From: Rhizobium sp. ZPR4
GTDB taxonomy: Bacteria; Pseudomonadota; Alphaproteobacteria; Rhizobiales; Rhizobiaceae
Assembly: GCF_040215725.1 (NCBI RefSeq)
Contig: NZ_CP157967.1
Coordinates: forward strand, 124,001 to 188,000
Reading direction: 5' to 3'
DNA: 64,000 nucleotides
The position numbers were made by a program, and so were the translations under genes. Below the pieces are notes generated by a model. That model searched no databases, was not told where the DNA came from, and saw nothing but the letters and a program-made list of their open reading frames with translations. This document shows, in pieces, positions 2,703 through 31,951 of the stretch (its first letter is position 1; the number at the start of each line of letters is the position of its first letter).

Positions 2703-2746
2703 GGGGTCATTTGCTTATAAGAGGGTCTATATAAGGGTTTGACCCC
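2703..2746. repeat. Structured repeat unit 1 (two-stem hairpin)
   Basis: Outer arms GGGGTCA (2703-2709) and TGACCCC (2740-2746) pair perfectly over 7 bp. A 4x4 internal loop (TTTG/GGTT) follows, then an inner stem CTTATA/TATAAG (2714-2719, 2730-2735) and a 10-nt apical loop. The unit has the same architecture as unit 2 at 2762-2807. It lies between convergent genes, just after the primase-helicase stop codon. No T-tract follows, so an intrinsic terminator is not the obvious reading. Candidate roles are a replication origin or recombination site of the element, or a structured RNA in a 3' UTR. Confidence 0.7.
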
Positions 2747-2761
2747 CTTTTGCCTGCTTGT

Positions 2762-2807
2762 GTTATCATTCGCTTATAAGGGTATATCTATATAAGGTTT
2801 TGATAAC
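2762..2807. repeat. Structured repeat unit 2 (two-stem hairpin)
   Basis: Outer arms GTTATCA (2762-2768) and TGATAAC (2801-2807), a 4x4 internal loop (TTCG/GTTT), an inner stem CTTATA/TATAAG (2773-2778, 2791-2796) and a 12-nt loop. Compared with unit 1, three outer base pairs differ and all are compensated, while the inner stem and the flanking TCA/TGA are unchanged. A partial third copy of the right half (ACTATAAGGGTTT) lies at 2848-2860, without a visible partner arm. Confidence 0.7.
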
Positions 2808-4082: not shown

Positions 4083-4107
4083 GCCGCTTTAGCTCAGTTG
4101 GTAGAGC
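4083..4107 (+). repeat. tRNA-Thr 5' half, inverted copy (fragment 2)
   Basis: These 25 nt match the acceptor strand and D-arm of the tRNA-Thr gene at 4254-4230 at 24 positions, but on the opposite strand. Downstream a TTCGAT motif occurs, but I cannot fold a proper anticodon or T-arm, so this is a remnant and not a working tRNA. Together with the intact gene it forms an imperfect inverted repeat about 170 bp across. Confidence 0.6.
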
Positions 4108-4178: not shown

Positions 4179-4254
4179 TGGTGCCGCTTACGTGACTCGA
4201 ACACGTGACCCCATCATTACGAATGATGTGCTCTACCGACTGAGCTAAAGCGGC
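4179..4254 (-). tRNA. tRNA-Thr (anticodon CGT)
   Basis: A complete 76-nt cloverleaf on the minus strand. The acceptor stem is GCCGCTT/AAGCGGC, the D-arm is GCTC...GAGC, and the anticodon stem CATCA/TGATG holds the loop TTCGTAA (anticodon CGT, reads ACG). The T-arm carries TTCGAGT, the discriminator base is A, and CCA is encoded. Its 3' end forms the boundary with the integrated element, so the gene was left intact by integration. Confidence 0.93.
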
Positions 4255-23167: not shown

Positions 23168-23204
23168 AACCGGTCGCGAAAGCAGACCGGTTCAACCCCG
23201 GTCT
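23168..23204 (-). terminator. Riboswitch expression platform: terminator versus antiterminator
   Basis: On the minus strand AACCGGTC (23192-23185) pairs with GACCGGTT (23175-23168), followed by a run of T: an intrinsic terminator. The competing pair is AGACCGG (23204-23198) with CCGGTCT (23190-23184), which uses the same bases. The two folds exclude each other, as a transcriptional switch needs. Confidence 0.85.
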
Positions 23205-23205
23205 T

Positions 23206-23257
23206 TTTAGCCATTTGTTTAACGTGGCTGCAAGCCGACCGGCCAAATCACCACGGG
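23206..23257 (-). promoter_or_regulatory. SAM-II riboswitch aptamer
   Basis: The minus strand carries the SAM-II pattern GTGGTGATTTGGCC, then CGGCTTGCAGCCACGTTAAA and ATGGCTAAAA, which form the classic H-type pseudoknot aptamer. It lies 64 bp upstream of metZ, with a terminator platform in between. S-adenosylmethionine binding is expected to switch metZ off. Confidence 0.9.
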
Positions 23258-23336
23258 ATAAGTTGCAATACTGCCGTTGACGGCTTGCGTCAATTCCCCG
23301 AGTTTGGTTTTGTCTGCGGCAAATTATGAGAGAAGC

Positions 23337-31907: not shown

Positions 31908-31951
31908 CTGCATAATTCCTTAAATCGGTATCGATTTAAGGAATTATGCAG
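31908..31951. repeat. 20-bp-arm perfect palindrome
   Basis: Arms 31908-31927 and 31932-31951 pair perfectly over 20 bp around GTAT. The arms begin CTGCATAATTCCTTAA. The right arm runs into the family 2 repeat at 31942-32008. It lies upstream of the TerB-like gene. Confidence 0.8.

Follow-up and report, generated by a model that had tools for sequence, protein, structure and literature searches.

Tandem nested hairpins beside a primase-helicase gene: a probable replication origin or priming site of a small tRNA-integrated element in Rhizobium

The hairpin units and the element that contains them

The window analysed here is a 64,000-nt stretch of Rhizobium sp. ZPR4 (contig NZ_CP157967.1, positions 124,001 to 188,000), in which two tandem hairpin units follow the stop codon of a primase-helicase gene, beginning at +25 and +84 (Table 1). 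The units sit inside an 8.5-kb integrative element in tRNA-Thr(CGT), bordered by 46-bp direct repeats of the 3' end of that tRNA, 8.46 kb apart. The element comprises an integrase of the phage integrase family, small open reading frames (ORFs), the primase-helicase gene, the hairpins and a cargo gene, and its GC content is 0.49, against 0.61 in the flank. In a conspecific genome (G208) the site is uninterrupted, and the right and left flanks match a single locus with a 66-nt overlap across the att segment. A 16-bp copy of the tRNA-Thr 5' end, in the opposite orientation, lies just within the right end of the element (window 4083-4098).

Table 1. Coordinates of the hairpin units and of the element features (window positions unless stated otherwise)
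Feature	Position	Strand	Description
Hairpin unit 1	2703-2746	+	44 bp; GGGGTCA / TTTG / CTTATA / AGAGGGTCTA / TATAAG / GGTT / TGACCCC
Unit 1, parts	outer arms 2703-2709/2740-2746; internal loops 2710-2713/2736-2739; inner stem 2714-2719/2730-2735; tip 2720-2729		tip AGAGGGTCTA
Hairpin unit 2	2762-2807	+	46 bp; GTTATCA / TTCG / CTTATA / AGGGTATATCTA / TATAAG / GTTT / TGATAAC
Unit 2, parts	outer arms 2762-2768/2801-2807; internal loops 2769-2772/2797-2800; inner stem 2773-2778/2791-2796; tip 2779-2790		tip AGGGTATATCTA
Primase-helicase, last 891 codons	3-2678	+	952 aa as P0002; start upstream of window; archaeo-eukaryotic primase (AEP), PriCT_2, DinG-like superfamily 2 (SF2) helicase
Convergent ORF, 292 aa	2922-3800	-	no Pfam, PHROG or PADLOC match
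attR, right end of element	4179-4224	.	46-bp direct repeat
attL	contig C1:119722-119767, outside window		46-bp direct repeat
tRNA-Thr (anticodon CGT)	4179-4254	-	integration target

The primase part of the encoded protein is RepB'/PrimPol-like, with matches to PDB entries 3h20 and 3h25, the same fold as the RSF1010 primase RepB'. The helicase part belongs to SF2: ResIII was matched weakly in 18 of 21 family members, and DinG/XPD chains were the top PDB matches. In the structural model, the order of helices and strands at the C-terminus suggests a possible winged helix. No DUF3987 or DUF5906 was found in the primase-helicase, and none of the three small element ORFs that were run gave a match to AlpA. 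The origin-binding protein (OBP) of herpes simplex virus (HSV) was not among the best 50 Foldseek or the best 50 VIA matches, a result that is uninformative and excludes nothing. The convergent ORF is presumed to be the cargo that this copy of the element carries. A related Rhizobium element, BK602 (L016/L141), occupies the same tRNA with identical 46-bp repeats and carries a DUF2806/Abi_alpha protein instead, so the cargo varies.

The nested layout departs from chance

Direct reading bore out the architecture described in an earlier, sequence-only reading of this DNA, namely outer stems of 7 bp, 4x4 internal loops, identical inner stems and apical loops of 10 and 12 nt, together with the compensatory changes claimed there, since three outer-stem pairs differ on both sides between units 1 and 2. 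Folded as single-stranded DNA (ssDNA), unit 1, unit 2 and the plus strand of region 2700-2810 gave z values of -4.4, -3.4 and -4.9, and 0, 2 and 0 of 200 shuffles, respectively, folded as well. In the lowest-energy fold the inner stem extends into the 'loop', where AGA/TCT or AGG/TCT closes a tip of 3-5 nt, so that the apical loops may be smaller than 10 and 12 nt.

A descriptor of the architecture, written from the window units (outer stem at least 6, loop 4x4 or 5x5, inner stem at least 5), gave 2 matches in the 330 bp 3' of the stop codon; its strict form was matched in 0/200 shuffles and its relaxed form 0.010 times on average. The outer-arm score by itself was matched or beaten in 37% of 60 shuffles and does not set the region apart. 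The lowest folding energy of a 62-nt window was likewise unremarkable (10/60 shuffles as low), and this measure did not generally separate relatives from shuffles. Because arm score and window energy are unexceptional, the non-random feature is the nested layout and not stem length or stability. The units are also the sole occurrences of CTTATA-N8..14-TATAAG in the 7.7-Mb genome, so they are not the common genomic repeat that had been considered as a contrary possibility.

At the gathering score, Rfam gave no match over the units in the 64-kb window, only one SAM_alpha and two tRNA matches, and no intrinsic terminator (GC-rich stem followed by a T-run) between 2500 and 4300 overlapped them. 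Similarity searches with the 351-bp hairpin region returned a single match in plasmids and a single match in phages, both at chance level. Elsewhere in the window, the SAM_alpha riboswitch lies on the minus strand at 23186-23264 (83.5 bits), and the descriptor scan also found a perfect palindrome at 31908-31951, its 20-bp arms separated by 4 nt.

Covariation in related Rhizobium elements

In BK602 the same gene is followed on its 3' side by a single unit, whose core is inverted relative to the window and whose outer arms are different. Its outer stem, GGTGTGGGGA/TCCCTACACC, has 9 of 10 pairs Watson-Crick and the tenth G-T, and provides an unbiased test because the locus was found through the inner pattern alone. 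In Rhizobium sp. JAB6 (L142) a tandem pair of units lies, by reading, about 67 and 175 nt past the last codons of the gene, and the core orientation is the same within this pair, as it is within the window pair. In JAB6, about 2.6 kb of DNA resembling an insertion sequence (L142:12760-15360; boundaries and nature judged by eye) splits the 3' end of the gene, so that its final codons and the two hairpins lie on the far side.

Across these five Rhizobium units, 95% of 80 cells were paired and 8 of the 16 pairs had changed on both sides. The covariation score was 0.50 versus 0.22, slid versions were 32-56% paired, and four measures exceeded all 500 shuffles while the fifth was reached by 28/500, with the caveat that five rows are few and that the shuffles do not preserve relatedness. 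The selected fold proposed in the sequence-only reading, which would have been called into question by a lack of covariation in homologous elements, is thus supported by compensatory changes in related elements. Covariation was limited to these five units because MAFFT misaligned the distant ones. When 11 units were compared, most of them chosen for their pairing, each unit's own arms paired at 6/6 positions (BK602 at 5/6) and arms crossed between units at 2.4/6; 4 of 110 cross pairs reached 6, since arms are shared within two pairs of units. The outer arms comprise 9 different 6-mers among the 11 units, and the inner stem and tip retain more sequence.

Hairpins beside distant relatives of the helicase gene

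Relative loci were collected from a scan of GTDB contigs (14 loci), from sets of 394, 397 and 385 genomes (matches in 9, 13 and 3, own genome included) and from plasmids (two loci); the protein search, limited to the 8000 candidates sharing most words, gave at least 24 matches. Among these, P0003 and P0005-P0010 are 48-67% identical to the BK602 protein and come from contigs of 4 to 10 kb. Five plasmid records had partial primase-helicase matches, of which Ruegeria and Azospirillum were taken further, and no relatives of the primase-helicase were found in viral contigs or phage records. Twenty-one loci were scanned whole, the window's included. Not among the 21 were L150 and L154, where the helicase is partial; L159-L163 and L173-L178, which match in the primase part only or are cut off; L164/L165 and L282, presumed copies of L145/L148 and L146; and L169-L172 and L281, for which longer stretches were used.

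Hairpins lie downstream of the gene in BK602, in JAB6 (displaced), in Mesorhizobium IRAMC:0171 (two in tandem with 11-bp arms, possibly in opposite orientations by reading), in Mesorhizobium B2-4-15, in G834 and in G824. They lie upstream in a Rhodospirillaceae metagenome-assembled genome (MAG), G1208, a Gammaproteobacteria MAG (12-bp arms), two Azospirillum loci (one by eye), Ruegeria TM1040, G649 and a Planctomycetota MAG (11-bp arms). Some of these hairpins have an AGG...TCT tip in common, and the carriers of hairpins are spread over more than one group of the helicase tree. In the G834 element the cargo apparently consists of a DNA cytosine methyltransferase and a Vsr-like protein, judged from the ORFs (L276:2721-4732). 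On the Ruegeria TM1040 megaplasmid (L167:1-17812), two BRO-family genes that share one protein accession flank the helicase and a type I restriction system, an arrangement that resembles partial duplication of the element.

Repeats with arms of at least 11 bp and 20-40 nt between them occurred 6 times beside the gene, in 5 of the 20 loci besides the window's, and 6 times elsewhere in 350 kb; the 6 beside the gene compare with 0.16 expected (Poisson 2e-8), a P value that, like the other enrichment values, is only indicative because the zones and the tip motif were set after some sequences had been viewed. A nested hairpin with an RGG(N0-5)TCT core was matched 8 times in 368 kb, 5 times beside the gene, twice in JAB6 past the insert and once at an unrelated place. 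Within 148 genomes of the genus, CTTATA-N4..12-CTATATAAG was found at 6 places in 5 genomes, 4 of them 3' of a primase gene and the others in G035 and G048. The inner-stem pattern over 200 genomes was matched in 48, with fewer matches than its reversed-pattern control, and this count is uninformative. The hairpins and long-armed repeats beside the gene support the tie to a replication gene that had been proposed for the window units.

A similar core in prophage and viral sequences

An exact match to GGGTCTATATAAGGG occurs twice in the 148 genomes, in unit 1 and in a prophage-like region of G013, where it follows the 3' end of a Prim-Pol/DUF3987 gene. When one mismatch is allowed, it occurs at 8 places in 8/148 genomes, and a control pattern had more matches; the ORFs at the six one-mismatch places were read, and none of the places was at a primase gene. 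For the core pattern in viral stretches, the best 80 of 89 were read. Seventy-five with GC below 0.5 were dismissed as chance, five of them after inspection, and in five high-GC viral contigs the region closely resembles that of G013. A Prim-Pol gene lies within the stretch in L192, L217 and L235 and none was seen in the L207 and L255 stretches; L217 and the G013 region (L015) have identical hairpin sequence. The viral hairpin region gave no match in similarity searches of plasmids and phages. In four other viral contigs (L186, L220, L229, L239), GTCTATATAA-GGGG motifs, repeated in some, adjoin GCTATATAGC in non-coding regions. As evidence of kinship, the phage similarity may serve as a lead and not as proof.

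Discussion

We consider it probable that the hairpins are cis-acting DNA structures that form the replication origin of the 8.5-kb tRNA-integrated element, or priming or loading sites within it. That a number of distant relatives of the gene also have adjoining hairpins makes a role at the start of replication probable, and the primase and helicase folds, together with the precedents of pRN1, RSF1010 and HSV OBP, are most economically explained by an origin or priming hairpin. Among the functions that had been offered for the units, replication origin thus fits best, and nothing was found in favour of a recombination or partition site; the recombination sites of the element itself are the 46-bp tRNA repeats.

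A close parallel is the Sulfolobus plasmid pRN1. Deletions showed that its replication requires a stem-loop immediately 3' of the replication gene, and that this stem-loop can be moved and must be intact (PMC4234260); the authors of that work offer no direct proof of the stem-loop as origin and note that another group interprets it as a rolling-circle origin (PMC4234260). The phage BIP-1 also has a stem-loop 3' of its replication gene (PMC4234260). Like these, the Rhizobium hairpins stand beside a gene joining an archaeo-eukaryotic-type primase to a helicase, keep their structure while sequence changes (here in the outer stem), and vary in place relative to the gene, by experiment in pRN1 and among relatives here. 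The pRN1 structure, however, is about 100 nt long with a 21-nt stem, a large loop and an SF3 helicase, whereas the present units measure 42-52 nt, consist of outer stem, symmetric internal loop, inner stem and AGG...TCT tip, occur in two copies in three loci, and accompany a DinG-like SF2 helicase. In RSF1010, RepB' binds the hairpin sites ssiA and ssiB, one per strand; a site spans 40 nt, with its hairpin at nt 7-27 and a GTG at nt 31-33 (PMC4434180). Both systems have two hairpin DNA sites and a primase of the same fold; here, in contrast, both units have the same orientation, the primase and helicase are fused, and inspection by eye of the 10 nt 3' of unit 1 and of JAB6 unit 2 showed no GTG on either strand. 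HSV-1 OBP, an SF2 helicase, binds the origin hairpin OriS* (PMC12543377); OBP belongs to a eukaryotic virus and binds boxes as a dimer, and the comparison shows no relation in sequence or fold beyond SF2. The defining features of phage-inducible chromosomal minimalist islands (PICMIs) are int, alpA, a DUF3987/DUF5906 primase and a location next to fis (PMC10803314), and the term 'stem-loop' is absent from the main text of that paper. Our element resembles them as a small integrated island that encodes an integrase and a primase among other genes; unlike PICMIs it shows no DUF3987/DUF5906 in the primase-helicase and no AlpA match in the three small ORFs, and is inserted in tRNA-Thr.

The sequence-only reading knew of no described family with this layout. 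That holds for Rfam and for the open-licence literature searched, in which no description of the hairpin or element family was found, but not for the kind of arrangement, since a stem-loop origin beside a prim-pol/helicase gene has been described for pRN1 (PMC4234260). The principle is known, and the hairpin family and its helicase partner appear undescribed in the literature searched.

The fold, its covariation, its attachment to the helicase family, the element borders and the absence from the conspecific genome can be read from the DNA itself, and we infer excision and replication of the element, the hairpin as origin and the identity of the binding protein. The element would excise by means of its tyrosine integrase and the 46-bp att repeats, and the primase-helicase, or the DinG-like helicase with partners, would bind beside its own gene. 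There the hairpins would extrude, or fold single-stranded after the region opens. The tip (AGG...TCT) and internal loop would act as recognition signals and the outer stem would need pairing only; a primer would be made at the hairpin and extended by a host polymerase.

Besides the late setting of zones and motif mentioned above, several observations weigh against this interpretation. With arms of at least 8, 14 matches in 12/20 loci compare with 4.7 expected, and several of these are not the described hairpins; in both Azospirillum loci the count took other repeats than the named ones. With arms of at least 7 the excess is small (30 in 20/21 loci, a 1.4-fold rate). G524 (L166) has 7-bp arms only, at chance level, and Methylocystis (L143), Novosphingobium (L151) and G738 (L279) have weak candidates only. 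The sole candidate of Aestuariispira lies at about +290, Mesorhizobium B2-4-15 has long arms without the tip motif, and Bosea has a good inner stem with just 4 outer pairs (by eye). The primase is not a constant partner, as none was seen adjoining the helicase in G834. The viral similarity may mean something else, because there GGGTCTATATAA stands in a stem arm and not in the tip; the segment forms one side of a long hairpin that has an outer stem of its own.

Another ssDNA signal, such as a second-strand (sso-type) origin, an origin of transfer (oriT) for a helper's relaxase or a packaging site, is an unlikely alternative. The adjoining replication gene and the indifference to orientation fit it equally, and no relaxase appeared among the element ORFs run against Pfam, where no systematic search was made, so that a helper could act in trans; small satellites such as PICMIs depend on helpers (PMC10803314). 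Such a signal, however, need not track the helicase gene through distant relatives, on either side. We regard as rather unlikely a double-stranded operator, a palindrome bound by a dimeric protein that regulates the primase-helicase or cargo gene: the dyad symmetry persists and the site adjoins the gene, lying upstream in many relatives, but the outer arms share little sequence, the tip is asymmetric, and the two units of one element differ in their arms.

An RNA structure (terminator, mRNA-stability element or small RNA) would suit a position after the stop codon in the Rhizobium elements and before the convergent ORF in the window. The lack of a terminator-like site over the units, the inverted BK602 core at the same place and the upstream hairpins of other relatives nevertheless make it improbable, and the structured RNA in the 3' region that had been suggested earlier is less supported for the last two of these reasons. 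As for chance or a generic genomic repeat, the arm score by itself is unexceptional in the window, but the explanation is very improbable, being contradicted already by the occurrence at two genome places only, the covariation, the enrichment beside the gene in relatives and the descriptor shuffles.

A wider reading than that of an origin or priming site in this one element is possible, and we put it forward tentatively: the hairpins may represent a new origin-hairpin family, mostly of Alphaproteobacteria, that co-evolves with DinG/XPD-like SF2 replication helicases of small integrative elements and shares its core with Rhizobium prophage and viral Prim-Pol hairpins. Its traits would be a sequence-free outer stem, a symmetric 4x4 or 5x5 loop, an AT-rich inner stem and an AGG...TCT tip, and the Prim-Pol genes concerned would be unrelated. 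If this were true, element and phage origins would answer to one factor, for example through an element that borrows or mimics a phage replication signal.

In many small integrative elements and satellites a primase or helicase can be recognised and, to our knowledge, no origin is known. If a hairpin signature tracks one helicase family, such origins could be found by sequence, and a DinG-like SF2 helicase would be tied to the start of replication. Structure-based origin recognition, as in pRN1, the RSF1010 ssi sites and HSV OriS*, would become testable in an easily grown soil bacterium, and the phage link may provide a route to how such elements and phages share replication signals.
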